Positions 6,046 through 34,049 of a DNA stretch of 64,000 nt are shown piece by piece; the first letter of the stretch is position 1, and each line of letters begins with the position of its first letter. Location: assembly GCA_001632425.1 (NCBI GenBank), contig KV425623.1, positions 73,555 to 137,554 on the forward strand, in the 5' to 3' direction. Position numbers and translations under genes: made by a program. The notes under the pieces are model-generated. The model did no database searches. It had not been told where the DNA came from and saw only the letters and a list, made by a program, of their open reading frames with translations. The DNA is from Neolentinus lepideus HHB14362 ss-1 (lineage: Eukaryota > Basidiomycota > Agaricomycetes > Gloeophyllales > Gloeophyllaceae).

Positions 6046-6722
6046 TCAGATATCCTGGTACGCACGAGTGATGCGGGGATCACGACGTTTGTAGGGGTCC
6101 ATTATCACCACAGGTGTAGAAGAAGTAGCAATGGAGGTAGATGTAGCTTCCGTGGAAGATCCTGAAGATGGTTCTATATAATGGTGAGCCATCCGATTAT
6201 ATCGCATAGCGATGCTCTTACCGATGGANNNNNNNNNNNNNNNNNNNNNNNNNNNNNNNNNNNNNNNNNNNNNNNNNNNNNNNNNNNNNNNNNNNNNNNN
6301 NNNNNNNNNNNNNNNNNNNNNNNNNNNNNNNNNNNNNNNNNNNNNNNNNNNNNNNNNNNNNNNNNNNNNNNNNTCGCGACGTTTGTAGGGGTCCCTTATC
6401 ACCACAGGTATAGAAGAAGTAGCAATGGAGGTAGATGCAGCTTCCGTGGAAGATCCTGAAGATGGAACCGTATAATGGTGAGCCATCCGATTACATCGCA
6501 TAGCGGTACTCTTACCTATGGAACTATGCAGATCCTTCTCACGTCCCCACCATTCTAGATCGTCCGAGAGAACAGGAGCTATTGAAAATCTGGTCAGAAT
6601 GAACGTTGAAGGTGTAGTGTTGACCTTGACCCACCTCGAGCTTCAACAGGAGCGGCTGTGGCCTGGAAGCCGGTGGACGCGACGACGCCGAAGATGACCA
6701 CGAGGGAGAAGAAGTGCTTCAT
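6046..6722 (-). CDS. secreted repeat precursor kepA (Kex2-type dibasic sites; contains N gap)
   Basis: Seen: start ATG at 6722. Exon 1 (6722-6635) encodes a clear signal peptide (MKHFFSLVVIFGVVASTGFQ, then ATAAPVEAR). A 56-nt phase-1 intron (6634-6579) is followed by exon 2 (6578-6046). Exon 2 opens with APVLSDDLEWWGREKDLHS, then a module running from SIGKS to DPYKRR. An N run of 145 follows, then a second copy of the module and the tail DPRITRAYQDI before TGA. The two visible modules are 49 residues each with about eight substitutions, rich in Ser/Thr, and both end K-R-R. The reading frame is preserved across the gap (copies offset by 294 nt). Known: signal peptide plus tandem modules ending in dibasic sites is the layout of Kex2-processed repeat proteins. 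Inferred: the modules are released as secreted peptides. It is related to kepB and kepC by the E-W-W-G motif and the intron phase. I do not recognise the family by name. Confidence 0.72.
6229..6373. other. assembly gap (145 N) inside tandem repeats
   Basis: A run of N separates two near-identical copies of a module (6080-6228 and 6374-6520 on the plus strand). The gap lies exactly between repeat copies, so it was probably caused by repeat collapse. The number of modules in kepA is therefore unknown. Confidence 0.95.
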
Positions 6723-6833
6723 ATTAACTGGGGATAGATGACGATTAAGCGAAGGATGTGAGGAAAGGGAGTAGTTGAAGAAGAAGTATAGATATGTTGT
6801 TGGCTGAAGAGCTTGGCTGACTCCTGACCTCCC

Positions 6834-6840
6834 TTTATAT
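6834..6840 (-). promoter_or_regulatory. TATA box of kepA
   Basis: ATATAAA on the minus strand about 110 nt upstream of the kepA ATG. The stretch between is CT/AG-rich with no other start codon in frame, which supports the chosen start. Confidence 0.55.
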
Positions 6841-8910
6841 CGTCCAGATACTCCATGGGCGATGCATCCACCCACATACGAGTCATCCTGGCACACATGC
6901 TGTGACTACAGTTCCTCAACCAGTCCACTGTATCATCCGGTTTAGGAACCGTGCTGTCAGGTTGCCATGTTTGACAGTCGTGGGTTCTGACGTTGTTGCT
7001 TCAGCCACCCAAACCAAGCGCGAACGATCAGCATTTACAGATTTGATCCATGCCACAGCTCGTCCTTTCGCAGGTCCGTGATGGCTCAACTACGGTCAGA
7101 GAGGGATATCTTCCTCCAATCCGATCTGCGGGAACGGCTCAAGAATCATATCCGTAGTTGTGTTCGGTCCCACACCTTAACCTGATTGTTCGCAGGGCGC
7201 GCAATGTAATCACGCAGCACTGAGGCGGCATCGGTTTGACTGCGGGTTGAAAAACGCATTCGAAACAACCTGGGTGTACGGAACAGTCTTCCGTTTTCCG
7301 CCTCGCATCCTATGTCGGGAGTTTCACGAAGCATCGCTTCGCTGGACAGATAATCAGCACATAATAGAGCGCCAGCTTAGACAAGGCACAGGTCCCGAAC
7401 CCAGTGAGATCCGAATCTGAGACGTTACAAGGCGAGCGCGTACCGCGTCCCCGGATCTAGACATGGGATTCCTTTGACTTGTGTACTCATACTACTCGCT
7501 GTCATGGTTAGATTGTTGACATGCCGGTACCGCGATGGATCAACGGATCATAGATCATAGATGCGCCGTTTGGTGGCTGGGCTCTTAATATATAGCAGTG
7601 CAATCCCATAGCGTTTGTGGCTAAGATACTGACTTGAGCAAACTGCCAGCCCCGAGTCGAATCCAATAATTTGAAATGATCTATGCACCAACTCGAGGAA
7701 TATTCGGATCAACCCAAGCTGCCAAGTGGTTCAAGCAGCAGAGCTCCAGGGCATTGCAGTCCATAACCATTACGTAGCTGTACTCAGAGAAGTCAGGTCT
7801 TTGTTGGGCATGCAGTACTGTAACCGGCTTCTTGAAGACATCTCGGTCTTTTGCTCGCTCTGCCCATAATTAACGCTTACTAAGGGATGCACGATGATAA
7901 TGTTTGATACAAGAACAGATTAAGTAGGTGGTTGTTCCAACAATACACCCAGTCATTTGATCATGGAACATAAGAATTTGCGGTCTATACTGCAGATGTT
8001 TCAGACTATGATGCACTTATATCGCCGCTAGTTCGACTGGTGGTGCTAGTGCGCCGTCTTGCAGGTGCTCTCCATACCCAAGTTCAGTTGTCGATCCTGG
8101 TTTTCGCGCAGAATTATCTTATCAACAGTTATCATCGGCGCGCCGGAAAGCGTGAGACGTCCGAATACTGTGACATGCTTGCACTCCGGTAACCCACAAA
8201 GACGTATTTTGGATGTCTTTAGCGTGTGCGTATCAAGTGTTCACGTCCAATCAGAGGCGAACTTGGTCGTTCAATGATCACCTACAAACAACGTCGTCAC
8301 AAGATGCTATATCTAGCAGCAGGACAGATAATCACCGTATGAAGGCTGTGCGCCTGGCTACTGCAGTGCGTGTTAATCGGTTGCACTTGAAGCAGGTCGC
8401 CAAGTGTAGATCAGATGCAGTGAAATGCACTCTGCTCCGTGATTGATGCGCCGCCCCGAACATATCGATATTCCGCGCGAGTCCGTATGTCAGGTCTTCT
8501 TGTACTAGTGGCAATGAGATAAACGTGCCACTGAGCATTGCAATAAATAGACAACCTGACTGGATTGTGAGTTTTCAGAAGTCTGTCCGGCGGCGGAATA
8601 GAAAATCACAGTCCTGGCAATGACAGTATAGGTGACTTGTAAACAAGGTATCCATGGTGACAAGTGAGTCAATTTGACCGACAGGTCTGAGGAAATGAAT
8701 CAATTATTTAATTGACCAGTCACAATGGTACAACGGAATATACCGGCGTCATTGAAAGGCTGAATCCCGGACGTCCCCGACTACGCCGTTACTTACCTTT
8801 CTTTCACCGGTGAGGCGCATATCCCGTGGTACCCTCAGGGAAGCGCTGGACTAACTGCCACTACAAATTTCCACAGGAGCCAGAACAACAAACGGTGCTG
8901 CTCATCAACG
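6841..8910. other. intergenic, about 2 kb without a supported gene
   Basis: Only short open frames occur (up to about 77 codons), with no recognisable motif. The first part is the promoter side of kepA and the last about 100 nt lead into the F-box gene. No tRNA, tandem repeat or transposon end was seen by eye. Confidence 0.4.
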
Positions 8911-10470
8911 ATGGATTCAACAGAAGCTACAGATCGAACAATTCATTCAATTGCAGCCTCCGAGATTCATATGCGCTCAAACCATAATCGGCTTCAACTT
9001 ATCAATTGCCTGCCCACGGAACTGCTTTGTGACATTTTTCTGTGCATCAAATATCATGGGAATGCCTGGAAGCTACCACTTATGCCAGTGTCCCATGTGT
9101 GCTCTCATTGGCGTCGGATTACCCTGGCATATACATCCTTATGGGATCACATTGATCTCAACCAAATGAGCTCTCACGTCATATTAGAGCTTCTTCGTCG
9201 GAACAGGAGCAGTGGTCTATATGTTCGTGTCTGCGACGCAGCTCTCCGACACCTTGGACGCCAAGACATAGTCCGTTTATGGCCACTGATTATCCCAGAT
9301 GCTCTCTCTTTGAGCATCTGGTGCTCTGCGATACCAAACCCTGTGTTTCTTGACTGGCTTATCACATTTCCCGCACCACGTCTGATAACACTAGAGTTAT
9401 CGAGCAATTTCAACTTTTCATGGTGCCTGGCAGCTACGGATTCAGCGGCCTTCTTTGGAGGACGGCTACCTGCTCTCAAGGTTCTGCAAACTACCAACTT
9501 TCCCTTGGCACTCCGTCCCGGGTTATACAGCGGACTCACGCAGCTGCAGTTTGAGATGGACGTGAGCGTGGCGATCGACCGCGAGGATACGGGCGCACAT
9601 ATCATCCAGGTCTTGCGCGATTGCCCGACTCTGGAATCCTTACGGCTGGGAGGGCAGCGCATACATACGCTAGGCCCGGACTTGCCTGACACCGTTACGC
9701 CCCTCAGCCTGCCAAGGTTGAAGTGGATATCCCTAGACTTGCCAGGGCGTCTTTTCCTCTATATCAGCCGCTGCATTGTTGTTCCTGAGACAAGCGCAGT
9801 CCATATTTCCACATGGGACTTGCAGAACCTTGCTGATGCCCTTCAAGACGTGCCATCCCGAATTCTACCCATCGGAGTCTTGGCCGAGATATGTATTCGC
9901 ATTCGGGCCGATCCTGCCATGGAGGAGCTTCCTCAAAGGGAGTTGTGGATATCAGGACGTACAATTCACGGTATCAGTGTCAATTTCACCCTCCACGACA
10001 CATATGCAAGCTCTGTATTCCAGACAGCTATCATTGATTCCATTCTTCGGACCTATGCACTGTCAAATCTACAGACAGTATATATCGTGGGCGAGCATGC
10101 CAGACCTCGTATGCGTGTGGAGACCGAAAATTTGGACGCTATCATTAAACTCCTACGACATCTTTCTGCACTGCAGACGTTAACGCTGTACGCTATGTCA
10201 GACAAACTCTGGGACCGGCTCGCTGGTCATTGTCATGACAAAGTTTCCCCGCTTTTACCAGCTTTGAAAGAGCTGAAGTTCACCTTCTGCGTCATCAGTC
10301 CAAGCCTGATGAAATTCTTCAAAGCGTGGCAATCCTTGCGAAACCTCGAGCGACTCGAATTCAGAGCTTGTATGAAGGAGCGGGTCATGTACAGCGGCGA
10401 CATCATTGCTCAAATTACGGAGTATCTCAGCTGGTCGTCGCACAGAACTGAAGTAGTAGTCAAGCAATAG
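8911..10470 (+). CDS. F-box-like domain protein with LRR-like C-terminal part
   Basis: Seen: an intronless 519-residue frame. Residues about 28-75 form an F-box-like motif: LINCLPTELLCDIF, then PVSHVCSHWRRITLAYTSLW followed by DHIDL. This L-P-x-E-L-L-x-x-I-F / V-C-x-x-W-R / P/S-L-W pattern is that of the agaricomycete F-box-like expansion. The remaining about 430 residues are leucine-rich with irregular repeats (for example LRDCPTLESLRLGGQRI, LRHLSALQTLTLYAMSD, LPALKELKFTFCVIS, WQSLRNLERLEFRACM). Known: F-box proteins bind Skp1 in SCF ubiquitin ligases and present substrates through the C-terminal domain. The substrate is unknown; these genes are numerous and fast evolving in mushrooms. The frame has no internal stop and looks functional. 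It sits between kepA and kepB with no obvious link. Confidence 0.88.
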   Translation: MDSTEATDRTIHSIAASEIHMRSNHNRLQLINCLPTELLCDIFLCIKYHGNAWKLPLMPVSHVCSHWRRITLAYTSLWDHIDLNQMSSHVILELLRRNRSSGLYVRVCDAALRHLGRQDIVRLWPLIIPDALSLSIWCSAIPNPVFLDWLITFPAPRLITLELSSNFNFSWCLAATDSAAFFGGRLPALKVLQTTNFPLALRPGLYSGLTQLQFEMDVSVAIDREDTGAHIIQVLRDCPTLESLRLGGQRIHTLGPDLPDTVTPLSLPRLKWISLDLPGRLFLYISRCIVVPETSAVHISTWDLQNLADALQDVPSRILPIGVLAEICIRIRADPAMEELPQRELWISGRTIHGISVNFTLHDTYASSVFQTAIIDSILRTYALSNLQTVYIVGEHARPRMRVETENLDAIIKLLRHLSALQTLTLYAMSDKLWDRLAGHCHDKVSPLLPALKELKFTFCVISPSLMKFFKAWQSLRNLERLEFRACMKERVMYSGDIIAQITEYLSWSSHRTEVVVKQ

Positions 10471-10674
10471 CTAATCCGTATTTTTCTTACTATTCTTTGC
10501 GTCTCTGTTGTTAACAGATTGATATAGTCATCGTACCACGCAACTATACTGTGGCTGCACTGAACATTTTACTATATCTGGTCCATGACTAGGAAGTAGT
10601 CGTAAAATTCTAGTGGAACCTTTACTATACGTGTGTGTATCCCGTTATAATGTTGTGCGCTGAGCCTGCCCATT

Positions 10675-11288
10675 CTAGTAGGGATCCGGCGGCGGGGTGC
10701 TCGTCGTCCTCTTGCCCCACCATTCTGAAGGGACATTGATGTCGCTATTAGTACTCTGTCTACATGGGTACTCTTATTACTCACCGACCGAAAGTGTCGA
10801 AGTGACACTCGTGGGCAGTGAGGTGGAGACTGTAATGGTTTCCGCCCTTTTGCCCCACCATTGATCGTCTTCTCAGGATATTCAGTATGTGACTTCATAG
10901 TCAAATCGTATACTACCTACCTGGGGTGCTCATCGATTCGGTCGTCGTCGTGGCATCTGAAGCATGGTAAGGACTCGGGGAAGAAGCTAGCTGCGAATGT
11001 GTTCACATACTAAGGCTGGTCGAGGTGCTTGTGATTGATGAGGTGCTAACTTGTCTTTTACCCCACCAGTCAGCTGTATCTGTTAGATCGATTTAACATG
11101 CTGTGCGGATAACCAACGGAGAGAAACACCCGCCAGTTGCATTAATGCTAGCTGTAGCTTCAACCTGGCTGTCAGCAACTTGAGGAAAGACGCCTATCAG
11201 GACTATGCATACCGCTCATTTGGGGGGCGGGCACCCCCAGCACGACGGACAGGCAGCTCAAGACCACGAGAGAGAGGAGTGCTTGCAT
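10675..11288 (-). CDS. secreted repeat precursor kepB with three WWGKR sites
   Basis: Seen: six short exons (11288-11213, 11168-11130, 11073-11011, 10956-10921, 10868-10785, 10724-10675), five introns of 44-60 nt, all phase 1, giving 115 residues. Exon 1 is a signal peptide (MQALLSLVVLSCLSVVLG, then VPAPQ). Exons 3, 5 and 6 each begin with a tryptophan pair followed by a dibasic site: ADWWGKRQVST, DDQWWGKRAETITVST and EWWGKRTTSTPPPDPY (stop TAG). Between the sites the sequence is almost entirely Ser/Thr, with one N-A-T sequon. Known: Lys-Arg after a signal peptide is the Kex2 cleavage signal, and Kex1 then trims basic residues, so the predicted products are Ser/Thr-rich peptides ending in W-W-G. 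Inferred: a secreted peptide precursor, possibly signalling or RiPP-like. A plain genome annotation would easily miss it because the exons are 36-84 nt. The consistent splice phase and repeated motif argue against chance. Confidence 0.75.
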
Positions 11289-11348
11289 GGCTCAGTGTGT
11301 GCTTTGTGAGAGTTTCTTTGTGTTGGGTTATATTCACTGACCGTTCGG

Positions 11349-11356
11349 CTTATATA
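11349..11356 (-). promoter_or_regulatory. TATA box of kepB
   Basis: TATATAAG on the minus strand about 61 nt upstream of the kepB ATG. The first ATG downstream of it opens the signal peptide, which supports the start. Confidence 0.6.
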
Positions 11357-12924
11357 CCTCGTAGGTGGACACGGCTATACGCCGTAAGTGGGAGGAAAGG
11401 CGCTCTCGCCCCAAAGCAATGCCACAGATGATCTGTAGCAAGTCACTTGAATATCGCCTCTCTGTGGTCGCTCTCAGTGCCTTTGGTTCTCCCACCTCTC
11501 AGACAGTCCGTTTGACTGGTACCATTTTCAATTAAGTCGCGTTTCGACACAAGCGCGCCGATAGATCAAGTTTAATGGAACACATCATCTTGTACCAGGA
11601 CGGCTTCCGAGGCCTGGTCTCACATTGGTGATACCGTCAGCTCTAAGAACTTACACAGAACAGTGATTGCTGCCCTAGTGAAGTCAAGGTCTGAATATTC
11701 TAGCCTCGAGTGGCTCTATTTGCGGAAATATTTGCTGAATCTTATCTATTCCTCTCTGTATGTGACTCTTTCAGGGGCGATATCAAGGGGCACAACCTAG
11801 CACAGCATGCAATGACTTCAAAGCCGTCTCCAGTTCCGATGTCTCCTCTCAGCTCTGACGTGCCACACCCGAGCAAGGCTGTGCCGGTTGAAATTCTACT
11901 CTAATTGTCTATCCTATGTAGACGTTTCCAACCTCTAAGAGACTCTGGCTGCCACTCGAGACCACCATGATGTCATGTTCAATGCTGTACATGCCTTCTC
12001 ATCTCAACGACATCGCTATGTACACAAAGAGCCTCATGAAATTGACACCATCAGCCGACGGGCCGCTACGGTCTGGTGGCATCATCACAGAGCCCGCATA
12101 ATGTCGGGCATCTAGGAAACTGAGATCCGGGAAGTTGCATTCTGGCTATCAGTGCCTGTCATTACTGATACTATGGGAGGGAAGGGCGATCAAGCCATTT
12201 TGAGCCACAAGTGAATCCCATACGCTCCACTGTACTTCGATCTCTGTTCGACTGAGAAAACGCGGGCTATCGTATAAACCCTCTACCCGTGTCTACGGAT
12301 ACGTGATATATTCCATCAGACAGACCCTCATACAAACTGGCCCCATCTCACCCGTGCTGCGGTGTTTAATTGGCATATGCCATTGAGATGATCACGTCAT
12401 CACAAGATGCGACGTCTTCAATTTGGTCGATCCTCCTTGACGTGGACCTTCCATTGACGGATTGGCGAGCTACGTCTTGAAAGTTCTCTGTACCTTGGGA
12501 TATGTCAATGACAGGCCAGGTTAGGATAAGAATGAAAGGCGCCACCAAGTCCAACCACTCGGGAGCCTGGCCTGAGCAAAATTTGCCTCCTAGGGTGGCG
12601 CATGCGGACCGTCCAAAGGTCGTCACGGAAGTTTCAGCCTATGCGTTGTGTTCGTCTGCAAGAACTTGACGTACATGGCGTTCAAGATACTGAATGCGCT
12701 GTGGATTGCGGATCACACACTAAGTGAAACGAACCTTCAGCTCTGCCACAGAAGATGCTAGGACCAAGCTGTACCAATCTACTGCCGCAGTGTTCGATCA
12801 GACAACTGTTGCGCCTGCTCCGTATCATAGAAATTCCTCACCAATTCTGTGCCGTTGGTGATCCTTGAGACATATTGCTATATCCAGGCGAGTCACTGCC
12901 AACGTGACCAGCCTGCTATACAGG
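11357..12924. other. intergenic, no supported gene
   Basis: Scattered short frames only (for example 64 codons at 11710 plus, 86 codons at 12366-12626 minus). None has a recognisable motif or a convincing splice chain. It ends where the segment duplicated at 55.96 kb begins. Confidence 0.4.
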
Positions 12925-15345
12925 CAACAACAAACTGAAGACAGCGCAAGCGGGGCTCTGACTCATATTTGCAATCTGCGACCTCTCAGCAAGCATCAAA
13001 TCCGGGAGTCTCACCTTTGACGCTGCCGAACAGTGCAGGCGCCTTCTTCCAGACAGGCTATCAACATCGCAAAAGTTCGAAGGGTATTCCAGATCATAAA
13101 TGAAGGTCTTGCGAGGTCCCTGCGAGCCTGAAACCCTTCCATTCACGTGCTTGTCAATGACCACGCTCTATTCTTACCGAGGTACTGAAGGCTTAATGTT
13201 TTAGTTGGCACGCTTCCATGGCTGAATGCTCCGACGCTGGCGTATCATCGTTTATCATCAGGTGCCAAGCAAGGCCGTTCGGTGTTTCACGACAAGGCGG
13301 TCGCAATTAACCACCCGATCGGTACAGAGCAAGAGAACGAGAAGTATTAATGATGATGTGGATACCGTTCAGGTTATGAGGACCAGAACGGGAGAGTTGA
13401 GACGAGCCGCGCTCTGTAACGCCACCGCACTCGGAAGGCCGGCGCAGTTTCCGCAGCTATGATTTACGATGATGCACGGCGACCGCTCGTTGCGACAGGT
13501 GGCGGTGAGCAGCTTCTGCATTCGAGAGGCATTCACTAAATGATGTGGTGCACAGATACATCCGCTGCCACTTGGTTAGACACCGGCGGCTACGATCACA
13601 ATAGAGATCATGCTGAGTCCTAGGCTGGGCGCTTGCGCCAAGTTCCAGAACAGCGCCGACCGAGGACGGGTCCTGAGCGTAAAGGGCGGAACTCTCTGAA
13701 CGAGAACTGTCGCCCCTATCCCGTCTGCCAAAGCCTTTTCGTGCGGTAGAAGGGGCGTGAACTCCACTGCATGATCCTATCCACCTACCTACCTGTCCAC
13801 CCACAGCGTGGTCGAGCTCTAACCTACCTTCTGAGCGGCCACAGTCGTGTTTCAAATTGTTTCCACATCCAGTCGCAAGTTCACGATGCAGCGCAAGTAT
13901 GCCAGAATGTATTCCGAGAGTTCCTTAAACATCTGTGACCGACGGAGACGCTATACCCGTGGCCTAGTCAGTTCCCAGCCTTTGGTGCCTCTGCCGCAGC
14001 TGTGCTCTTTCTGGATGTTGGAACGATCTTCCTCGTGGGGTCCATGAAGCGCGAGATCTCGTCATCTGTGACCTTTGCTCTCCGCTGCATCGGAACAACA
14101 GATTAATGAAAAGCCTGATCTAGAGGAGTCTCTTCTCAGACGAACCTCCTGGAATGCCTTGACGAAATCTTGTAAATACGCGATGCACTTGGCCTTGAGC
14201 TCTCCAGTGAGTAATCGACCGGCGCGGTATTCCTGAGTGCCAGTCAATTAGCGTATGTATGTAGTGCAAAAACGGCTGAGGACGCACCCTTCCGATCCGC
14301 TCTAGTTCCTCATCGTCGTCCAAGAAGAAGCTCAGATACTGATAACTAACATCCACATCTGTATTACCCCCCTTCTCGCGATGAATCTCCTCTGTCTCTC
14401 CTCCCCCAGAGAAACCGTGGCGATTGATCTTGTTCTTAATACTGTTCATCGCGTCGTTCATGAAGATCCCGGAGTTGGGGTCCGACGCGCTCATCTTCGT
14501 CTGTGGGCCCTGGAGGGCGGGGAAGAACTTGGAATGCAGAAGCGTGGGCTTAGGGTACTTGAGCTTGACGGCGACGTCGCGTGTCAGGCGGAAGTACGGA
14601 TCCTGGTCTATTGCGCAGGGAATAAGGCACGGGATGTTGGATGTCGTGCCAAAGATCTGCGGGAAGGAATTGGAAAACGAGGGGGCGGCTTGTATGGAGG
14701 CGAAGTGGATTTTTCCGATGTTGTCGCTAGAGAATCTAATTCATGATGGAGTGGCAAAGGAGGAGATATGGCACATACGACTCAGTGAAGCCAAAAGTTG
14801 CTCGGGCTTGGCTGAACGTGATCTGGCGGGAGATCTTTGAGACATTCTTATAGAACGCTCCGCCGACGTAATCGTAATCGCTGAATATGAATGTCTTCTC
14901 TAGGTTGAAGCCGACGGCAATGATATCTCTTGCATTCTGCCTGGCGAACTGATAAGTTTGTTCTACCTTTAGCTCGTGCTTGAATAGGAATTTTTCGTCG
15001 TCTGTAAAGAAGAGCATAAGAGAAGCAGTGATGACAGGATATACTGACTAACCTGTCAACTGCACGACGAGAGGGACATCAAAGACTTCCTGTAACCATC
15101 TTAAATAGAGTTAAGCGTTCTGTAGTGGTGTGTACGCGAGAAAACACACTTGGTGAATACAAATGGAATCATATGCCCCAAATGCATACTATCACTACTT
15201 GGCCCTCGCCCAGTATACAGGAAGAAAGGCTTCCCCTGTTCATAGCGATCCAGAATTTTGTCGAATTCCCTGCCCATACAGTCCTTCAATATAGTCCAGC
15301 TCTTTTCGAACACTAATATCACTCACCGATGACTGAAAAACATAC
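12925..15345. repeat. segmental duplication, copy 1 (contains intact WRS)
   Basis: From about 12925 (GCAACAACAAACTGAAG) to about 15345, this interval aligns by eye, in the same order and orientation, with about 55961-58232. The two share the stretches GCTCTGACTCATATTT / ACTCTGACTCATATTT, the remains around 13740 / 56700 (TTTCGTGCGGTAGAAGGGG) and all WRS exons from the SHR exon to the C-terminus. The part at 12925-13850 carries coding-like remains (for example PLLPHEKALADGIG in one minus frame) that I could not assign. Confidence 0.85.
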
Positions 15346-15767: not shown

Positions 15768-15805
15768 GTCTGCCGTATTCCAAGAAATCCGAAGAACTTA
15801 TATAT

Positions 15806-18860: not shown

Positions 18861-19040
18861 AGACGCACAGACGCACCGTCCTCTACCACAATTTCTGAGT
18901 GGTGCGGTTAAGCCCGAGCGTTCAATATTCAATTCCCCCTTTATGACAGCGTGGAAATTATTGGACAGCCACTTGTGGAGTGCTTCGAAAAGTGCCAGAG
19001 CAAGTTCAACTCTCTGCAAACATAGAAAAGTGAAGAAATC

Positions 19041-20437: not shown

Positions 20438-22351
20438 TTACCCGGCATTGGATTTTAGAGGCTCCAACAGATGGCCCGCAACATCACGAATCTCGCCTTC
20501 GATGCCCACTGCCCATCCCCTTCCCTCCAACTCCCAATCCACATGCCCCGATTCCCGCAGGCCAACCCTGATTAATCTCACATTCCCCTCGCCCCATCTG
20601 ACGTATTCCTCGTTCGGATATCTCAGCACTGCAGGCGTATTCATCCCTACACCAAATTCCAGTATCGCCAGCTTGTTGTCTCTACCCCCCTCCTCGTCCA
20701 AGAATCTATCAATAAACTGCCTGAACCGCCTCTCGCCCTCTATCCAAGGCTGCTCATTGAACCATGAGCCACCCCTAACGCATAGAAACATCTCCCCACC
20801 ACAATACTGGCACCTAGGAATCTTGCTCTCGTCCATTAACACCTGCGTCTCCTTGTTGATACACGGCAGCGCCGCATCTACGTACGGCTCGGAAGGTGTA
20901 TATGCGTCTGGCCGGCACTTTCCTAGACATTGCAAGATAGCATAGCGCCCCTGGGGAGTGGAAAGCCTGTCGTCCGGGAAGCCGTGGCGCAGGAACATAC
21001 CGTCGGTGTTTGTCGTGCGGACAAAGAAACGTTCTGGATCACCATGGAATTTTGTCTCGATGAGATCCCGTATGTGAGTGTATGGCGACGGCGAGGGCAA
21101 GGGGAAAGTTCGATTCATATCGAGGCTGGTGAAGTAGTAGCCCCACTTGTGGCACTCGGAAGGCCAGGACTTGAACCCTATAATGTCGTACATGCACGTC
21201 AGACCTATCTGAAGCATGCCAGGGAAGTACTTTGCGAATAAGGCCTCGGAGGTGTAGTCAAGACCGATAGCAGCGGATAAACCTGCGCCGGCCGTTATGA
21301 GGAGATGCGTGCAGTCCCTCAGAATGTCCTGTACCGCGGAGATATTGGAAGATGTTAGTGGATTTAAAGGCGGTGGTGGAGGTGATCTAGGCACCGCTGA
21401 AAATGCAGGGATAAAGCTCGTCAAATTAGCATGATAGAGGGCGTAGTCCTGCGTCGTGAATACATTGAATATAACGTGCGTTACGGTAGAGTTCGGATGC
21501 GCCTCAAACCATTCCCGTACCGCGTTGACAGCGATCGACGCCGCCTCGGAAGGTGGAAACGCGAACATGCCAGTCGAGATACAGCAGAACGCGATGACCT
21601 TTCTGCCATCAGGGAGTGCTGGCAGCGCGTCAGCTGCGTCTAGGCAGGAGCGATAACAGCTCCTCAGCTCCTCGCATTCACTTTCCGTAGGCGATGCGCC
21701 TCTTGGAAGGTGCGGACCTACCGTGTGTAGCACATACTGCGCTGGCAGATTATATCCACTCGTCACCTTTGCAAGGCCGATAGGCTCCTCGTAATCCTCC
21801 GCGTGGACGGCCATGAGCGTATAGCAAGCCTCGCGCAGACGAGGCCCAGCGGCAGAATGAATGGCATTGTCGATGCACGGATGGTTAGGCCTGAAGCAAC
21901 CTAGCAGCGCTGAGTTGGCTGCATTGACTATGGCACTTGTCTCGCTCAAGTGGGTAATGTCACCTTTCCAGAGCGATACGGACACCCTGCTCCCATCGAA
22001 AAGAGGGTATGCTGGGATCGAAGATGAAGGGGTCAACATAACCTTGGTACGCTTGTAAGCCAGAACGGTATCAATGCTCTCATGAATCTCGAGAGGCAGA
22101 AAGGGCTCTGCAGGGCGTATGACAAGGAGATGGTTTAGTGCACCGAGTTGTTCGTAGGAAGACGGACAACCCGCTAGGATCCCTGACGCTTCCTCCTCTT
22201 CGTCTTCATTGCCATGATGGTGGTGGTGAGATCGAATGTGGTCCTTGTAGAGATATACTAGGGCCTTCTTCAGGTTGCTAGATGCTGCAAGGCTGGACGG
22301 CGTGGGTGGCGTTGTCCACAAATCGTGTCGTGTGGATGTGCCGCCCTGCAT
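20438..22351 (-). CDS. macrodomain fused to SirTM-type (class M) sirtuin
   Basis: Seen: one intronless 637-residue frame. Residues about 60-110 (LNHLLVIRPAEPFLPLEIHE) match the N-terminal extension of Zn-dependent macrodomains. Residues about 125-320 are the macrodomain: SLWKGDITHLSETSAIVNAA, then NSALLGCFRPNHPCIDNAIH (Cys/His cluster of the Zn-macro subgroup), LHTVGPHLP and CISTGMFAFPP. Residues about 340-630 are sirtuin-like: LLITAGAGLSAAIGLDYTSE, RTTNTDGMF, a reduced zinc site (CQYCGGEMFLC) and LEFGVGMNTPAVLRYP. Known: SirTM sirtuins ADP-ribosylate protein targets and linked macrodomains remove the mark; in Firmicutes they lie in an operon with GcvH-L and lipoate ligase, and fused forms have been noted in fungi. 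Inferred: a self-contained ADP-ribosyl writer/eraser. Neither a lipoyl-carrier nor a ligase gene is in this window. Confidence 0.92.
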   Translation of the reverse strand: MQGGTSTRHDLWTTPPTPSSLAASSNLKKALVYLYKDHIRSHHHHHGNEDEEEEASGILAGCPSSYEQLGALNHLLVIRPAEPFLPLEIHESIDTVLAYKRTKVMLTPSSSIPAYPLFDGSRVSVSLWKGDITHLSETSAIVNAANSALLGCFRPNHPCIDNAIHSAAGPRLREACYTLMAVHAEDYEEPIGLAKVTSGYNLPAQYVLHTVGPHLPRGASPTESECEELRSCYRSCLDAADALPALPDGRKVIAFCCISTGMFAFPPSEAASIAVNAVREWFEAHPNSTVTHVIFNVFTTQDYALYHANLTSFIPAFSAVPRSPPPPPLNPLTSSNISAVQDILRDCTHLLITAGAGLSAAIGLDYTSEALFAKYFPGMLQIGLTCMYDIIGFKSWPSECHKWGYYFTSLDMNRTFPLPSPSPYTHIRDLIETKFHGDPERFFVRTTNTDGMFLRHGFPDDRLSTPQGRYAILQCLGKCRPDAYTPSEPYVDAALPCINKETQVLMDESKIPRCQYCGGEMFLCVRGGSWFNEQPWIEGERRFRQFIDRFLDEEGGRDNKLAILEFGVGMNTPAVLRYPNEEYVRWGEGNVRLIRVGLRESGHVDWELEGRGWAVGIEGEIRDVAGHLLEPLKSNAG

Positions 22352-22909
22352 GGTGAGGTACGGTGCATCTCGTAGACTTCAATAGCGTCGATATATAGTA
22401 TGGTAGCCCAGAGAAAGACTGCTGACATATCTGCTTACAAGCCATTTTCATGTCGCGTAAGGAAGTGTGCGTAAGAAGCAAGGTCAAGCTGCGAAAATTG
22501 GCATCGATGTAGCCTCAAACAAGGGTGATTCTTAACGATGATAGTGTATATATTATTCTGATGTGCATCTGCATTGCACAGTCCACTATTGCACAATTAG
22601 CAGGCGATAAAAGACCAATAATCTAGTAAAATCCGATCGAGGGAGAAGAACAAGCATCAACCGTGCGCTACGTCCGCTCATCCACCTGATGCCCCTCGGA
22701 CTCGACGTGAACATTTTATGCCATCGCCATCCCAACCCCCATCCCAAGTCATCGAGCTCCCACACATGAACAGCGCAGAAACAAAAGAGAAAATGGAATC
22801 ATCGATGCCTTCGGTGTGGGTATGAGATAGACAAATGGGTATAGGAAATCATGAAAGGGGTTGACATGAGAAAGGGTGAGCATAGCAGAAGGCAGGAATA
22901 GCGCCGGTA
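22352..22909. other. intergenic between sirtuin promoter and TBP 3' end
   Basis: No gene supported. It includes the upstream region of the macrodomain-SirTM gene and the 3' flank of the TBP gene. Short frames only. Confidence 0.45.
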
Positions 22910-24086: not shown

Positions 24087-24883
24087 GGCGATGCTATACG
24101 ATGACAAGAGTTATCTGAAGGATGTGCGACGCGTCGATGGAGGGCAAAAGTTAACGCGTAGGAGGCGTGGGAAAATCTGCGGCGGGGGGTAGAGAATGTG
24201 AAAAGCAGAGCGAGAGGCCGCTCTTATATACCTACGCATTCAAACTCCGACGACGGAGTCATAGCCAAACAACTGCAAACTTTCTGCCACACACGCCTTA
24301 TCAATCAACCACCACGTCAACCGGTTGGCTCCGATCTCCTCGTTGCGCCCCTAGATTTCTCGGAATTTCGTCGTCGTCGCCGACGACGTCCAAGCGCTTT
24401 GCATTCTGCATTTCTGGCTTCATTCTTGACGTTCCGTAATTTATTCTGGTTTTTCTTATCTACTCGACGACGCGTCAAGCGCCTGACGCCCACAGCGGTT
24501 ACCCGGTTCCCACCCACCATTACAAATCCCCGCTTGCGCTAGAACCTCTTTGTGGTCCTCAATCAAAAACTTTTGCATTCTTGAAGATTAACGCACATCC
24601 TTTTGTGCTAGCGATTGTATGGTTCTTTGTTCTATCCCGGGATACATGGATTCTTGTCCAAGAGCAGGCGCTTCGAAACTGTCATGAGCATCCCAGGCGG
24701 ACTTCGCATGCACCTGCTCCCTACCACGCCTTCATCGGCTCCCTCGTGTGATTCTCTCTCTCGTGAACAGGCACACAGCAATGTTATAAACTCGTATGAA
24801 GGCACGTATTCGTGCGGATGGGGCCGTCCGGAGCGTGGTCGAACAGCCACCACGTATTGTCCGTCATGTGATATTAGAGCTAT

Positions 24884-26660: not shown

Positions 26661-26705
26661 GGTGGTTGCAGCAGAGAAAGTGAACTGGAGAGTGCGACTT
26701 GTCGT

Positions 26706-26713
26706 GTATATAT
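26706..26713 (-). promoter_or_regulatory. TATA box of the GH88 gene
   Basis: TATATATA 46-53 nt upstream of the ATG at 26660, with no intervening ATG. It supports the start at the signal peptide rather than the longer upstream open frame that begins at 27056. Confidence 0.6.
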
Positions 26714-27526
26714 AGCGTCGACCACGCAGGTGGGGGCGCCTGCGAGCGCTCGAGTCCATCCCCGTGACCTTTTTATAGCTTCCCACCCTGCCTAGAATGT
26801 CGCCGTATGTCGTGACCTTTGTGACGGTGTCACATTGAGAGAACCGGCTTTGGAAGACCTTTCGAGGATGCGTGCCCTTCGGACTGGTGTCGTAGGCACC
26901 GGGGACGGAATATTGAGTAACCCCAGGTACCAAATGAAGAGTGTCGCCAGCGCACACGCCGAAAATGGAGTACAGATGCCCAATACCACGGTTATTTGGA
27001 AGCATGCCAAAAGACCAGATTCCAGTCAGCAGACGAGGACATGTTAGACGAGACACACATTTGAATTACGCCAGAGGTCACGGCGAGGAGTATCCACTCA
27101 AGAGTACGTACAATTCAAGTATATCGGAAATAGATGCGTTCCGCCAGGATCCATCCAACCCAGTCGTAAGTATGAGGCGCAGCCAACGCACGGGTAAAAC
27201 AAAGACCAGCGCCGACAAGTAGAGGTGATTATGATCGTCTTGAAGTGTGCCATGGCATTACAAGTCCAGTGGGGCCAGCCGAAGGAATTCACAGTAAAGT
27301 GCCGATGAAATCCGCCAGTTCACTGCTTTTTTTCTGTCCCGACTGCGCAGGCGAGCAATGAGGAGGAAATGATGAAAATGGAGAAGCTTGAAGCTGCGGC
27401 GGAGTTGCTATTTCGGACTTGCCCAGTACGCGTCGCAGTCGCCTGGCTGGTGTCACAGTTTGGTCACTGCACTCTCTTTCCTCCTTTCATTTTCTTCCTA
27501 TACCCCCTACACGACTATAAAGCAAG

Positions 27527-30221
27527 ATGGCGAATTTAGGAACGGAGGTCGTATCGGTTATCAACAAGTTGCAAGACGTCTTCACCGCAGTAGGCTCGTC
27601 GGCGTCCTCGATAGACCTGCCGCAAATATGTGTGTTGGGAAGTCAGAGCAGTGGTAAGAGTAGTGTGCTAGAGGTGTGTAGAGGTGTATTGTGGGACTCT
27701 GAGTGTTGTGCTGATGAAAATTTGTTGGTCAGAACATCGTCGGACGGGACTTCTTGCCTCGTGGAACGGGTATCGTGACACGACGACCCCTCGTACGCCA
27801 ATTTATTCACAAATCACCTGCAGTCACTGACAGATACATAGGTCCTTCAACTTATCAACCGGCCAGCTACTGGAGGGGTAAACGGTGCTGCCAGTAAGTC
27901 TTTCACAAATCAGTGTTACCCCTGGATACATATCGTTCGCAGAGGAAGTAGCCAACGGCGTAGACGGCGACAAGGCCGCCAACGCGGACGAGTGGGGCGA
28001 GTTCTTGCACCTTCCTGGCGAGAAATTCTATGACTTTAACAAGATCCGCGCTGAAATCGTGCGCGACACCGAGGCCAAGACGGGCAAGAACGCAGGCATC
28101 TCACCGCTCCCGATCAACCTGCGTATCTTCTCACCCAACGTACTCACGCTGACACTTGTGGATCTTCCTGGGTTGACGAAGGTGCCTGTGGGCGACCAGC
28201 CGCGAGATATCGAGAAGCAGATCCGGGACATGCTGCACAAGTACATCTCAAAGCCGTCGTGTATCGTCCTTGCGGTAACGGCCGCGAACACGGACTTGGC
28301 GAATTCGGATGGGCTGAAGCTGGCGCGGGAGGTGGATCCGGAGGGAACGAGGACGATCGGAGTGCTGACGAAGGTTGACTTGATGTGCGTAGCCTGTGAT
28401 GGTGATATTACATCCTGCTGACCCGCGGACAGGGATGCCGGTACAGATGTCGTTGATATCCTTGCTGGCCGAGTAGTTCCCCTTCGACTGGGCTACGTTC
28501 CCGTGGTCAATCGTGGCCAGCGCGACATTGAGAGTAACAAGCCGATTCAAGCCGCTCTCGAGTACGAGAGACAGTTCTTCGAGAATCATGCGTCGTACAA
28601 GGGCAAGGCGCAGTACTGCGGTACTCCCTTCCTCGCACGCAAGCTCAACATGATCCTCATGCATCACATCCGCGCCACGCTTCCCGACATCAAGGCGCGC
28701 ATCTCCTCACAACTGTCCAAGTACAATGCCGAACTTCAAACTCTGGGCGGCGCAACTGGCGACGGCAACTCAGGCAACATCGTCCTTTCTGTGATCACTG
28801 AATTCACGTCCGAGTTCCGGTCTGCAATTGATGGTAACACGAACGACCTGTCGCTGAATGAGCTATCGGGTGGTGCACGTATCAGCTTTGTGTTCCACGA
28901 ATTATTCAATAACGGTGTGAAGAGCATCGATCCCTTCGATCAGGTCAAGGACGGGGATATTCGGACAATCTTGTACAACTCCTCGGTAAGCATAGATTTA
29001 GATGGTATGGCTGACAATCTAATTCGCTTCCTAGGGATCAACACCAGCATTGTTTGTTGGTACGACGGCGTTCGAGGTCATTGTCAAACAACAAATCAAG
29101 AGACTCGAGGACCCCAGCTTGAAGTGCAGTCAGCTCGTGTATGACGAGTTAATCCGGATATTAGGACAGCTTCTTGCGAAGCTCGTTCGTGACTTTCTTT
29201 AACTATGCCCAGTTCATGTCTCCTGACTGTTTGAATGCAGCAAGCGTTCAGGAGATACCCTGCTCTCCGGGAACGGTTCAATGCAGTGGTCGTGAGCTTT
29301 TTCAAGAAGGCGATGGCACCCACGACTAAACTTGTATCGGACATGGTCGCGTACGTACATTACTTTTAAAGTAGGCCAGAGTACTGAGTTATGCCGGACT
29401 CTAGTATGCAAGCATGCTACATCAACACAACACACCCTGACTTCCTCAATGGCCACAAGGTACGTTCATATCTCCCTCCGCTGTGACAGAAATTGACTTC
29501 TCATTTGCCAGGCCATGGCCATCGTCACCGAGCGTCTCAACGCCAACAAGCCAGCACAGCAACAAGCTGACCCCAAGAATGGCAAGCTCGCACCGGGGCA
29601 GATTAACAACAACAAAGACCTCGATGTTGATGCGAGGAAGGAGGAGCAGAGCTTCTTTGGGTCGTTCTTTGCGAATAAGGGCGCAACGGTCAAGAAGAAG
29701 GGTACAGCGGCTATGGAAGCAGTGGGTGTTGTTCATGAAACACCTTGTGGGTGACAGTTGAGCTTATCTTCGCTTTCATATTTGCTAGCCGCCGCCAGTC
29801 ATTAGGCCACAGTCGGCGCTGAACGACAGGGAGGTTATGGAGACCGAGGTAATCAGTGCGTATCAATCGCCTTCTCTGCGTTGTTTCGTGAGCTGACGTC
29901 CGCGTTTTCAGAGTTGCTCATTCACTCGTACTACAACATCGTGAAGCGAGAGATGATCGACATGGTACCCAAAGCCATCTCGTTAACACTTGTGAACTTC
30001 GCGAAGGAGAACCTCCAGAGGGAGCTGCTGCAGGAGCTGTACAAGCCGGAGGTGCTCGATGAGCTGCTCAAGGAGAGCGAGTTTGTGGTCAGCCGGAGGA
30101 AGGAAGTTGTATCTATGATCCAGGCCTTGAACAAGGCGGAGGAGTGCGTGTTCAGTGTTTCGTAGTTCTATGATTCCGGCTGATCGTTGTTATCTTTTGC
30201 AGGATCGTTGCGGGTGTTTGA
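27527..30221 (+). CDS. VPS1: dynamin-like GTPase, Vps1 type
   Basis: Seen: ATG 27527 ([20 protein letters not shown]), with P-loop [15 protein letters not shown] split from [20 protein letters not shown] by an intron. Then [33 protein letters not shown], the G3 loop [15 protein letters not shown] and the G4 motif TKVDLM. After a further intron, [90 protein letters not shown], a Ser/Lys/Gln insert (about 29510-29740), and a [23 protein letters not shown] to [18 protein letters not shown] 30219-30221. Known: Vps1 scission GTPases act at endosomes, Golgi and peroxisomes. The order 'PVGDQP ... [24 protein letters not shown]' fits Vps1 better than Dnm1, and no PH or proline-rich domain is present. 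About ten exons. Confidence 0.94.
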
Positions 30222-30547
30222 GCTTGATTAGGGTCTTCTAGATTATGTGCTGTTTTTGTTCTGTGCATAGTAGTACTGTAATATTTCTTTCTCATGGAAC
30301 ACTTTTTGTGTCATTTTCTTGTCAGACCTGGCATCATGATCTGCACTGATTAATACGTTTTCTGCACGGGCCAAGATCACGGTGAGTAACCAGTGGTGGG
30401 TTTCGATGGCAGTTCCAGTTTAAGGGTGCCCCAAGGAACAATTGCATTACAAGTTTGCCTTTCCAATATTACATTGCACGCACGGTTGACAGCAGACGTG
30501 CAGAAACTTCGCATTCTCTATCTTTCTCTCATATCCTTGATCAGTTA
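30222..30547. other. convergent 3' flanks of VPS1 and NTF2
   Basis: Shared short intergenic region between two convergent genes. It is T-rich with no further gene. Confidence 0.5.
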
Positions 30548-31156
30548 TCATGCACCGTAATTAAGGCGGAATATATCATTGAAACTGTGGGTAACGTTCA
30601 GGCAGACTTCTATCACACAGAAAAGGATACTCACACGTAGTAACTTCCACCTTCGGGTATCAGTTGGAAGACCTGACTGAACTGTAACGGGTTCTCGCCA
30701 TCGTCGACCTTTGGCGCGTCGATTCCGTTAGGGAACAGGTAGAGGAAAGGAATGAGTTTGATACACACCAGGAGGAGGCCCGTGACGCTAACGATCAAAC
30801 TCGCGATTGATGGAGAGGATGGTTGAGCATCGAGAGTCGTGATCTTGTGCTGCACCCGCTGGAAAGGGAGACTCTGCGAACCTCCAAATTTGAGTAGCAA
30901 TCCCGTGCCCAGAAACATCAAACTCACAGTCAACTTCTCAGTAATCGCTCCCGCACCTTGGGTGGGCGTGCCCTCGAAAGACAACATCGACGTGTCTCGC
31001 TAGTAGCAGCGTAATATGATCGTTCAGACAGCCGATCTTTTGAGATCGCACAGTGAGCGGACGTACGTAGAGACTCTGCAGCGCCGCCCGGTTCGAGTCG
31101 AATGTCGAGTAGTAGAATTCAGTGAACTGCTTTGCGATGCTGTTAATGTCGGCCAT
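30548..31156 (-). CDS. NTF2: nuclear transport factor 2
   Basis: Seen: ATG 31156, exon 1 [20 protein letters not shown] to AALQSLY. The intron (donor GTACGT, acceptor CTACTAG) joins to [20 protein letters not shown], then [24 protein letters not shown] and [15 protein letters not shown]. The next exon is [20 protein letters not shown] with SYYV, and the last exon [11 protein letters not shown] ends at TGA 30548. The length (about 125 residues) and [10 protein letters not shown] end are those of NTF2. Known: a homodimer that binds RanGDP and nucleoporin FG repeats and returns RanGDP to the nucleus. It is divergent from the gene starting at 31306, with about 150 nt between the two ATGs, so they probably share a bidirectional promoter. 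Confidence 0.95.
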
Positions 31157-31305
31157 CGTCGTTCCGTGTAGTGTAGAAAACCAAAGAATAAACAAGGAGA
31201 AAAAGACGCAGAGAAGATAATCGACGGTCGCGCCACAAGTGCGAAGGGCCGTTCTATATCGAGGAGCGTGTCGCGCTTCGCCTTCCCTTCCGTTGTATAA
31301 ATACG

Positions 31306-32819
31306 ATGGCGGCATACTCGCTGCCTGTCATGATCATGGCCATGGCCCCTGCTGACGCCCAGCGACCCTCCATGCGCAGAAAATCATCCGCACAGAATCT
31401 GTTGTCGTCGTTCAAGTCGAATGGCGGTTCAAGCTCGTCGAATCCGCTGCCTCCACCTCCGCCTAACCCAATTTCCATCTCTACCAGCGCTGTGCCCCCT
31501 GCGAATCATTCGTATGGGTCTGGGACACCGACGACTTCGACACCTGTCAGCAGGGAGTGGGATGTGCAATCGTTGACATCCGACGGGCTGCCATCAGCAG
31601 CGGGCGCGATAAACGGGAGTCCAGCGTTGGGGACGGGGACATCGGTGGAGTACTTGAGGGACTTGGTACAGAAGAGGATAATCACGCTCACTTATATGCG
31701 GAATGTCCATGATGGGTACGTCTAACTGTTACTCAGGAGTGTGCACCATGCCAAATGGGAGACAGCCGGAGTCACTGGTTTCATACTATCATGATGTCGC
31801 GGTCAGAGCTCGATAGAGTGTTCAATAACACAGCTATGAAGAAACGGTGAGATTCTGGTGCCACTGTGACCTCTGGTGCACGATTTAAGCTGCCCAGCTA
31901 ATCAGGACATATCGCTTTGCTGTCCTCGGCATGTCGCTCTCCACATTATTCGACATTCAACAACCGCAGGACCTTCTCCGAGGACTCTTGAACACACTGA
32001 CTGAGTATGATAACATGAAGGAAGGGGACGAGAGGCCCAGAGTGGTGCGTGACTGCTTTCAATCTTGTGTACTGGACTCCTGCGTGATCTGCTATTCCTT
32101 CAGAAACTATTCAGTAGATCAAAACTGTCGAAGCGACAAGCAGGTGCAATGAGTGATTACGCAATCTCCTACTCCGACTCTGCAGATACCTCGTACCTAA
32201 TGATGCCACACATGGTGCGTACTTCGACTTTTGTCATGTCCTGCACTAACAAACCGACGTTCGTCAGCCATTTTCCCTTGATTACCACCAAACCCTTCTC
32301 TCCCTCCTTGACATACTGTCCGAGTTGTACAACAAAATCCTCCGCTTCCTCGGCCCCTCGCCGTTCCCCAGCGCGCAACACATGCTAGGACCATTAGGCC
32401 TGCTGTCTCCACATCCCGGCGTATCTTACCTGTTCTCACAGCAAGGGGATGGCGAAAGCGACAGCGGTCTTTGGGGCATAGCGAACGCGCATGGCACGCC
32501 TCAATCGCAAGTTCCGTTCGGTGGGATGACAGGCTTGGGAGGCTTGAGCGGTCCACCGCCCACTTGGACGCCTGCTCTCGGGGAGAGCGTGCTCAAAATT
32601 GATGGAAAATTCAAGGTCGGAGACATCTCTGCCACGCAGTGTTGAACTGTGTACTCACTAAACCCTCAGAAAATTACCTCAATGTTATTGAAAGAGCTTG
32701 ACACCTTCGCACGGAACAGCATTAAAGATGAACTGGCGTCTCTCGACCCGCTTCTGCGAAATGTTGCTGTGACTGAGGATAGTCGCGAACAGTACGACTT
32801 CGAGGGCAGCATGGAGTGA
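31306..32819 (+). CDS. conserved fungal protein of unknown function
   Basis: Seen: ATG 31306. The first exon is Ser/Pro-rich and low-complexity (about 100 residues, with RRKSSAQNLLSSF) before SVEYLRDLVQKRIITLTYMR and NVHDG. An intron (donor GTACGT, acceptor GACAG) leads to RSHWFHTIMMSRSELDRVFN, NTAMKKR and, after another intron, TYRFAVLGMSLSTLFDIQQP with QDLLRGLLNTLTEYDN. Later exons have SKRQAGAMSDYAISYSDSAD, FPLDYHQTLLSLLDILSELY-like text in a spliced frame (about 32265-32330), RFLGPSPFPSAQHMLGPLGL and LLSPHPGVSYLFS, ending FEGSMEWSTOP at TGA 32817-32819. I know this pattern as a widespread basidiomycete protein without an assigned role. No catalytic motif is visible. It shares a probable promoter with NTF2. 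Confidence 0.8.
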
Positions 32820-33579
32820 CGGTTCGGAGGATTTCCGTGGACTGGTATTGTTCTTTGTATCTTTATTTTCTGTTCAGATTATTCAGTACTATCTCCTTTC
32901 TCGTCTCCAGTGTGTTATGTTTTGTACGATTCTTCGGGTACCATTACTATTGGATAAACTTCGCTACCTTTGTCTCTTAGTGTTGGCTCCGATGACACGG
33001 CAAACTCATCCCTCGATTCATCCCACGTGCTTTCAAGTTTTAATCTAGCTGCCTGGTTCTGCGTTTGAAGCAACATTCTAACAGCTGGTCAAGGTTAGTA
33101 TCGCTGGCTTAGTTTGCCATACCCCGCTCACCGTATGATTAGCTTCTAAGTGAAATGATGGCCCTCTTGACTGGCTTTGCATCCGTGACGCAGAGGCCTT
33201 TTTTGAGCTAGTGACGGGCACCCAGCGCTTCGCGCTTGGACCGTACTCGCCTACTAAGTCTTTTTAGGAGACGCGTACCAAGTCCACTTGGACCGGTGCT
33301 ACGCCACTGACGCACTGTCCCCGATGGCTCGCTAATGTAACTTGTGCGACCGTGATGGAGGTTGGTTCTCGCGAGTTGCCGAAATACGATCCGCGCACTC
33401 TCAGCGTAAGCCTGTACAAGTCTACATCTGACATTCGTCCATCAAGTATAGCATCCGCGCCAAGGGATGCTGAGGCTCAAGTGGCGATTTTTTTTCTTCA
33501 ACTGGTGATTCATCAACCTTCTACACGACCCTCTCCTGGATGGTTTCTCTCGTATCTGATACTCTCAATGTACATCTCT
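32820..33579. other. intergenic
   Basis: No gene recognised. A stretch near 33170-33310 is rich in short inverted motifs (for example CAAGTCCACTTGGACC), possibly structural or repeat-derived. The right end is the 3' flank of kepC. Confidence 0.4.
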
Positions 33580-33993
33580 TCACACTTCCACATCCTTCCT
33601 GTAAGTGGTGGTTTCTTCTGCACGCTTTCCCCACCAGTCAGTATCAAGTGCTGCCAGCTCAAGTCAGTAAGTCCGCAACCCACTATCACCGACGATATAC
33701 TCACATAAGGTCGTGGTTGGTATGTAGATGCTGGTCGGGAAGAAGCTCAGTGAAGTGCCGCGTTTATCCGAGTCGTCTTTGGCCGCTTAGCATGTCGATT
33801 AATTACGTGTTCTTCCATAGGCTTAACTGACCCACCTGCAGCATCTGTGAACCCAGTTCGATGGAATTAGAAAGTGAGGCATGAAGGTAGGCTGCACATC
33901 ACCTGCCGTAACTCCCTGGGGCAAGGCAAAAGCGAGATCCACTCCAAATGCAGCGGTCAAGATCACGGCGATGAGCTTCGCAGACGTCTTCAT
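33580..33993 (-). CDS. secreted repeat-family precursor kepC with one WWGKR site
   Basis: Seen: exon 1 (33993-33903) encodes the signal peptide MKTSAKLIAVILTAAFG followed by VDLAFALPQGVTA. A 9-nt microexon (33844-33836), exon 3 (33785-33705) and exon 4 (33650-33580) follow, all joined at phase 1 by introns of 50-58 nt, giving 83 residues. Exon 3 encodes AAKDDSDKRGTSLSFFPTS with IYIPTTTL. Exon 4 encodes SLDTDWWGKRAEETTTYRKD and ends VEV, TGA at 33580-33582. There are two Lys-Arg sites, the second in the W-W-G-K-R-A-E context also found in kepB. Inferred: a Kex2-processed secreted precursor of the same family, with a single WWG-ending peptide. The 9-nt exon is the least certain part; without that intron the frame ends early in exon 3. 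Confidence 0.68.
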
Positions 33994-34042
33994 GATGTGT
34001 TAGGTATTTCCGGTTTGCTTGGGAGCGGTACGCTCACGGGCT

Positions 34043-34049
34043 CTTTATA
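34043..34049 (-). promoter_or_regulatory. TATA box of kepC
   Basis: TATAAAG on the minus strand about 50 nt upstream of the kepC ATG, at a spacing like that of kepB. Confidence 0.6.

Follow-up and report, generated by a model that had tools for sequence, protein, structure and literature searches.

Putative Kex2-type precursors of secreted peptides encoded by three genes in a 64-kb window of the mushroom Neolentinus lepideus

In the brown-rot mushroom Neolentinus lepideus HHB14362 ss-1, a stretch of 64,000 nucleotides (contig KV425623.1, here C73, positions 73555-137554; the window) holds three genes, kepA, kepB and kepC, that appear to encode secreted Kex2-type precursors (KEPs). This is a known kind of fungal gene. 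All three lie on the minus strand, at the loci where an earlier note on this DNA had placed them, and GT-AG splicing joins their exons into open reading frames. Splice sites for the gene models were chosen partly to keep the frame. Genome searches covered the 33.8-Mb assembly, in which C73 reads N at contig positions 1-11554, 79783-79927 and 138180-141009. The features of the three genes, in window coordinates, are as follows.

6722-6046, minus strand: kepA precursor gene, spliced model with exons 6722-6635, 6578-6516, 6455-6374, a 145-N gap, 6228-6222 and 6161-6046
6516-6578, minus strand: kepA exon 2, with a single EWWGR followed by E; EWWGR also occurs in a protein of Heliocybe sulcata
6080-6522, minus strand: DPY-KRR direct repeat of kepA, with two readable copies (6374-6522 and 6080-6228, 92% alike)
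6834-6839, minus strand: TATA-like box TATAAA, 117 nt upstream of the kepA ATG
11288-10675, minus strand: kepB precursor gene, spliced model with exons 11288-11213, 11079-11011, 10956-10921, 10871-10785 and 10724-10675
11351-11356, minus strand: TATA-like box TATATA, 68 nt upstream of the kepB ATG
33993-33580, minus strand: kepC precursor gene, spliced model with exons 33993-33903, 33844-33836 (9 nt, doubtful), 33785-33705 and 33650-33580
34044-34049, minus strand: TATA-like box TATAAA, 56 nt upstream of the kepC ATG

Much of the common layout proposed in the earlier note is apparent in these models. The N-termini are hydrophobic and, judged by eye, signal-peptide-like in all three, and Ser plus Thr account for 41% of the residues after the signal in kepB, 22% in kepA and 25% in kepC, in line with the Ser/Thr-rich spacers described before. 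The TATA boxes are present as well, although the distance at kepA exceeds the range of about 50-110 nt given for them. All ten modelled introns (three in kepA, four in kepB, three in kepC) are in phase 1, as had been claimed. Because splice sites were picked partly for frame, this uniformity is not independent evidence; database models are, and NCBI models independently use the first kepB intron and the two 5' kepA introns. Judged from sequence, the secreted-precursor genes seem real, with kepA well supported, kepB fairly and kepC weakly.

The kepA protein starts with MKHFFSLVVIFGVVASTGFQATAAPVEARAPVLSDDLEWWGRE and has a signal-like start and then APVEAR-APVLSDDLEWWGRE; the readable rest consists of ...PVVIRDPY-KRR, the gap, and ...PVVIMDPY-KRR-DPRITRAYQDI before the stop. 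The gap (6229-6373) conceals part of the gene and sits exactly between the two repeat copies, so that two DPY-KRR ends are readable beside it; an assembler failing on a tandem array might have left it there. Cutting the readable parts at KR/RR gives one and two fragments, with the gap between. A motif of WWG and a basic residue, which the earlier note had assigned to all three genes, is indeed present in each, but in kepA it is WWG-R-E, with one basic residue and hence not a dibasic Kex2 site. The dibasic sites of kepA are those of DPY-KRR, which had gone unmentioned. The repeated end in this gene is (D/E)PY, and WWG-R occurs singly, near the start of the readable part. A codon pattern for (V/I/M)I-x-(D/E)-P-Y-K-(R/S) matched the genome twice, both times in kepA, and its reversed control not at all.

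Searching proteins with kepA recovered two among 704 candidates. One, NEOLEDRAFT_1245341, is a partial protein of the same strain with 100% identity over 63% of the query; its first 77 residues equal those of kepA, and therefore both 5' introns are used by the NCBI model. The other is a Heliocybe sulcata homologue (P0003, 156 aa; E 1.1e-24) with 57% identity over aligned columns. It aligns in the signal region (MRHFFSLVIIF...ATAAPVEVRAP) and at EWWGR, and carries the units VIRDPYKR, VVIRDPYKR and VVIYEPYKR, with three [DE]PY-KR in all. Its tail is DPRVTPQPMEPY, with DPR(I/V)T after the last KR(R) as in kepA. The alignment score of the 77-residue 5' part of kepA with this homologue was reached by none of 1000 shuffles, and by none of 2000 with WWG masked. 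In the converse direction, a genome protein search with the homologue gave one match, kepA exon 1. Both fungi belong to the Gloeophyllaceae, and this conservation is the strongest evidence for a real kepA gene.

The kepB model encodes 105 aa, with the modules DTADWWG-KR, EDDQWWG-KR and EWWG-KR on separate exons and the C-terminal end TTSTPPPDPY, and thus a DPY end like the kepA repeats. Cut at KR, it yields four fragments, of which three have a WWG end. The database protein NEOLEDRAFT_1151462 of the same strain is identical to kepB over the first 25 residues and at DTADWWGKRQV; it has intron 1 of kepB and departs from the KEP frame past the first module. Re-splicing kepB with a frame-shifting second intron of 20 nt (11010-10991) reproduces the database protein save for one extra Arg, so that a further site of that model probably differs by 3 nt. 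An intron of 20 nt would be implausibly short, so that this annotation, which drops two of the three WWG-KR modules, is probably in error. An alternative model with an additional kepB exon behind a 34-nt intron was rejected; that intron is also very short, and the NCBI model lacks the exon.

For kepC, the model gives 83 aa with DSD-KR and DTDWWG-KR-AEETTT. With a single WWG core, kepC is not a repeat protein. The claim that all three genes are Kex2-type secreted precursors fares unevenly: it holds well for kepA, with its Heliocybe homologue, and reasonably for kepB, whereas kepC is probably such a precursor on the grounds of one motif and its gene structure.

To compare the three proteins, local alignments were scored against shuffles, with kepA entered as its 77-residue 5' part; these shuffles preserve composition in just two blocks, and stretches rich in Ser/Thr raise the scores. 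Unmasked, the score was reached by 0 of 1000 shuffles for kepA-kepB and for kepB-kepC and by 14 for kepA-kepC; against the H. sulcata homologue it was reached by 6 for kepB and 48 for kepC. With WWG[KR] masked, the counts out of 2000 were 111 for kepA-kepB, 2 for kepB-kepC and 1750 for kepA-kepC, and 467 and 825 for the homologue with kepB and kepC. Beyond the motif, kepB and kepC are thus weakly related, kepA-kepB is a borderline case and the other pairs show no relatedness, and the masked kepB-kepC score may be owed to Ser/Thr-rich composition. Because masked kepA matches kepB and kepC unconvincingly, the kinship of the three is partly motif-based, and the single three-gene family proposed before finds partial support.

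Five codon strings for [DEQ]-WWG-[KR] occur in the window on either strand, all inside kepA, kepB or kepC. In 300 first-order Markov simulations the count averaged 0.02 and never exceeded 1; the motif was chosen post hoc, and three of the five strings are copies within kepB. The readable remainder of C73 contains no other WWG with K or R behind it. Genome-wide, WWG-K-(R/S) gave 11 matches (four in the window, seven elsewhere) against 6 for the reversed control, and all seven outside the window, when translated, have no acidic residue directly before WWG. For (D/E)-WWG, a pattern that by design skips kepA (R-E) and the Q-WWG copy of kepB, there were five genome matches, three of them in the window and the others WWGKE and WWGQQ by codons, with 7 in the reversed control. 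The looser pattern TGGTGGGGNARR gave 114 matches versus 97 reversed. A genome protein search with kepB returned its own four exon pieces and weak matches at E 0.45 (C9) and 0.82 (C4); this leaves room for distant paralogues, because kepA and kepC were not recovered even at E up to 10. The larger genomic family suggested earlier finds no support in the pattern counts.

The best reading of these data is that the three genes form a small local group whose precursors would give rise to linear secreted peptides. It is quite likely that kepA, kepB and, with less assurance, kepC are secreted precursors that yield linear peptides through Kex2-like and Kex1-like processing. The sequence itself shows the open-frame gene structures, the cut sites and the conservation of kepA in Heliocybe; secretion, actual cleavage, lack of cyclisation and the kinship of kepC are inferred. 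By established KEP biology, a signal peptide would take the precursor into the secretory pathway, where a Kex2-like protease would cut after KR, RR or KRR and a Kex1-like carboxypeptidase would trim the basic residues. The products would be linear, about 10-35 residues long and conserved at the C-terminus: ...VVI(R/M)DPY from kepA, QVST...DDQWWG and AETI...VEWWG from kepB, and GTSL...DTDWWG from kepC. Phase-1 exon duplication could multiply such module copies with the frame intact.

Several observations weigh against this reading. Outside the motif, the masked shuffles do not demonstrate kinship of kepA with kepB and kepC. Between the two kepA repeat copies, 7 of the 60 positions in the intron differ and 5 of the 89 in the exon (Fisher p 0.23), which leaves coding constraint unproven. 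A protein search with kepB (E up to 10, 32 candidates) matched N. lepideus itself alone; this query still had the extra exon of the alternative model and, in addition, a Gly and a Ser that the kepB model lacks. The same search with kepC, in which one candidate was scored, found no match, and kepC has one WWG core alone besides its doubtful 9-nt exon.

In a rival reading, kepA would be the only genuine KEP, with kepB a decayed relative and kepC a signal-like ORF and one WWG-KR string brought together by chance. Besides the homologue outside the species, found for kepA only, the annotated kepB frame that differs from the modelled one and the loss of kepC-kepA similarity on masking speak for it. 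However, three in-phase WWG-KR exons that are free of stops after splicing would be unlikely in a decaying gene, and kepC shares with kepB a TATA-like box, phase-1 introns and DTDWWG-KR-AE, along with the masked score reached by 2 of 2000 shuffles. We regard this rival as unlikely, though it is the one to be taken most seriously.

Among known fungal systems, the KEPs described by Le Marquer 2019 and Umemura 2020 are close to these genes. Like them, the genes have a signal-like start, KR-bounded fragments and repeated C-terminal ends, and a DUF3328 gene was not found on the contig; kepC differs in having no repeat. The Le Marquer 2019 pipeline, in the parts of PMC6339444 that describe it, calls for at least four fragments of 2+ residues after KR/RR cutting. 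Both kepB and the H. sulcata homologue give four, the C-terminal one included, and kepC gives three. A second criterion of that study asks for at least three similar fragments; the WWG end is the sole feature common to three kepB fragments, and kepC, with one WWG end, falls short of it. Agaricomycete KEPs ending in -AADW (L. edodes KEP 2599 and P. ostreatus KEP 1091723, in sections of PMC9769878) or carrying an XSDW motif (sections of PMC6339444) resemble kepB and kepC in (A/T)DW near the Kex2 site (TADWWG-KR and DTDWWG-KR), but the genes described here add two residues, W-G, before KR, and kepB and kepC lack STE13 dipeptides. The ...EPY-K of C. cinerea KEP 497993, compared by its detected peptide alone (QIPAELPTKSINGNIEPYK), resembles the ...(D/E)PY-KR of kepA and the H. 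sulcata homologue; three or four residues are in common, possibly by chance. The core of Laccaria MiSSP8 is D-W-(K/R)-R, unconfirmed by a literature search for DWRR, which gave no fungal paper. MiSSP8 is a repetitive precursor with Kex2-site cleavage, as proposed here (passages of PMC7329392). The same paper places Neolentinus and Heliocybe in a widespread KEP type (#7). Were the H. sulcata homologue a member, the kepA search could have been expected to recover more than its two proteins, which speaks against membership without deciding it. The string WWG is absent from the main texts of PMC6339444, PMC7329392 and PMC9769878, most KEP sequences standing in their supplements, and WWGKR was not found in the literature searched.

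Another view is that the products are structural surface peptides coating hyphae, as with Ustilago Rep1, a kind of precursor that the earlier note had named and whose repellents are characterised by amyloid-like surface fibrils. The Ser/Thr-rich, apparently secreted and repeated sequences would be compatible with this, and TATA-type promoters would fit strong expression. Yet short peptides with a conserved C-terminal end would suit recognition better than coating, and we consider a structural role improbable.

WWG-(R/K) could also be a recognition tag rather than part of a product, read by one dedicated fungal processing or modifying enzyme. This is a doubtful conjecture. In both genera, kepA has a single WWG-R close to its start, and in kepB and kepC the motif adjoins all cut sites but one (three plus one copies). 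If true, one enzyme could serve precursors with otherwise different cores. WWG-KR also resembles G-K-R, which marks peptides for amidation in animals; PAM, the enzyme responsible, is described in parts of PMC6529398 as missing throughout fungi. The PHM domains PF01082 and PF03712 had no genome matches here, in a search that was without a positive control, since the control genomes matched neither.

Modified, cyclised peptides of the dikaritin RiPP type, a role that had been left open, are very unlikely. The Tyr at the cut site of DPY-KR would suit them and the genome has 11 matches to UstYa (DUF3328, PF11807), but none of the 11 lies on C73, whose N stretches are unreadable, and in sections of Umemura (PMC7329392) DUF3328 genes are near 6.1% (103/1680) of basidiomycete KEPs.

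Least probable of all are alpha-factor-like mating or self-signalling pheromones. The precursor layout equals that of the alpha-factor type, and both kepA and the H. sulcata homologue have D-P, an X-P type dipeptide, behind their last KR(R); in kepA only this last site is readable for such a test, as the residues past the first readable site lie in the gap. The residues after KR are QV, AE and TT in kepB and GT and AE in kepC, with no X-A/X-P, and the A-E that had been likened to the alpha-factor dipeptide is not in the X-A/X-P order that STE13 removes, so the comparison fails for these two genes. A CAAX C-terminus is the criterion for a basidiomycete a-type mating pheromone, and the three proteins end in DPY, VEV and QDI, with no CAAX among them. 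None of 23 STE3 matches falls on C73, and basidiomycete mating pheromones are of the a-type according to portions of PMC9769878. The exon-level STE3 matches (two of them below the family cut-off) fall on C88 (20, at about 49.5-106.5 kb) and C6 (3, one locus).

The genes lying between kepA, kepB and kepC include F-box, Trp-tRNA synthetase, macro-domain and dynamin genes. The Pfam scan covered 20 of the 62 window ORFs of at least 130 aa, and an Rfam search gave no match. A segmental duplication (12928-15330 and 55963-58211) carries a cytosolic-type Trp-tRNA synthetase (TrpRS) gene, with ungapped blocks 78-100% alike; the 14-kb copy matches solved TrpRS chains over 147 residues, and in the 57-kb copy no intact frame is visible by eye. 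A link between the Trp-rich peptides and the duplicated synthetase (13-15 and 56-58 kb) was considered and dropped; the 14-kb copy may be the normal cytosolic enzyme, because other PF00579 matches lie on three contigs. Elsewhere, 20441-22378 (minus strand) is a 646-aa ORF with a macro domain and, by eye, a sirtuin-like stretch following it, possibly a macro-sirtuin fusion. At 40816-41451 an ORF has a T5orf172/MUG113 domain, presumably of the GIY-YIG type. Retroelement ORFs at 60557-63157 (minus strand), with RVT_2 and a retroviral polymerase SH3-like domain, belong to what we take to be a Copia-type element, and an RNase H ORF lies at 59731-60243.

On the reading of kepA, kepB and kepC as precursors of linear peptides, these products would most likely function extracellularly, either as signals or in encounters with other organisms, by analogy with the role already proposed for other mushroom KEPs. 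According to portions of PMC9769878, Coprinopsis, Lentinula and Pleurotus all yielded linear KEP peptides, with ...AADW as the end of the Lentinula and Pleurotus ones; some products of Pichia expressing Coprinopsis KEPs seem cut after a single Arg, so that a cut at the kepA WWG-R would be allowed; and Coprinopsis peptides that begin with Gln carry it as pyroglutamate, which bears on the Q start of one kepB peptide. Six kep knockouts in C. cinerea had no detectable phenotype in the same portions, and known cases therefore offer no argument for a particular role.

Short multi-exon genes of this kind can be mis-modelled: the database kepB holds one of three WWG-KR modules and the kepA model ends at the assembly gap. 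With these two models incomplete and no protein found for kepC, counts of such genes that are based on protein catalogues could be too low. Many Kex2-type precursors of obscure role exist in mushroom genomes, and the present set supplies short, testable candidate peptides (...VVIxDPY and ...DWWG), one kind of which is conserved across two genera, Neolentinus and Heliocybe.

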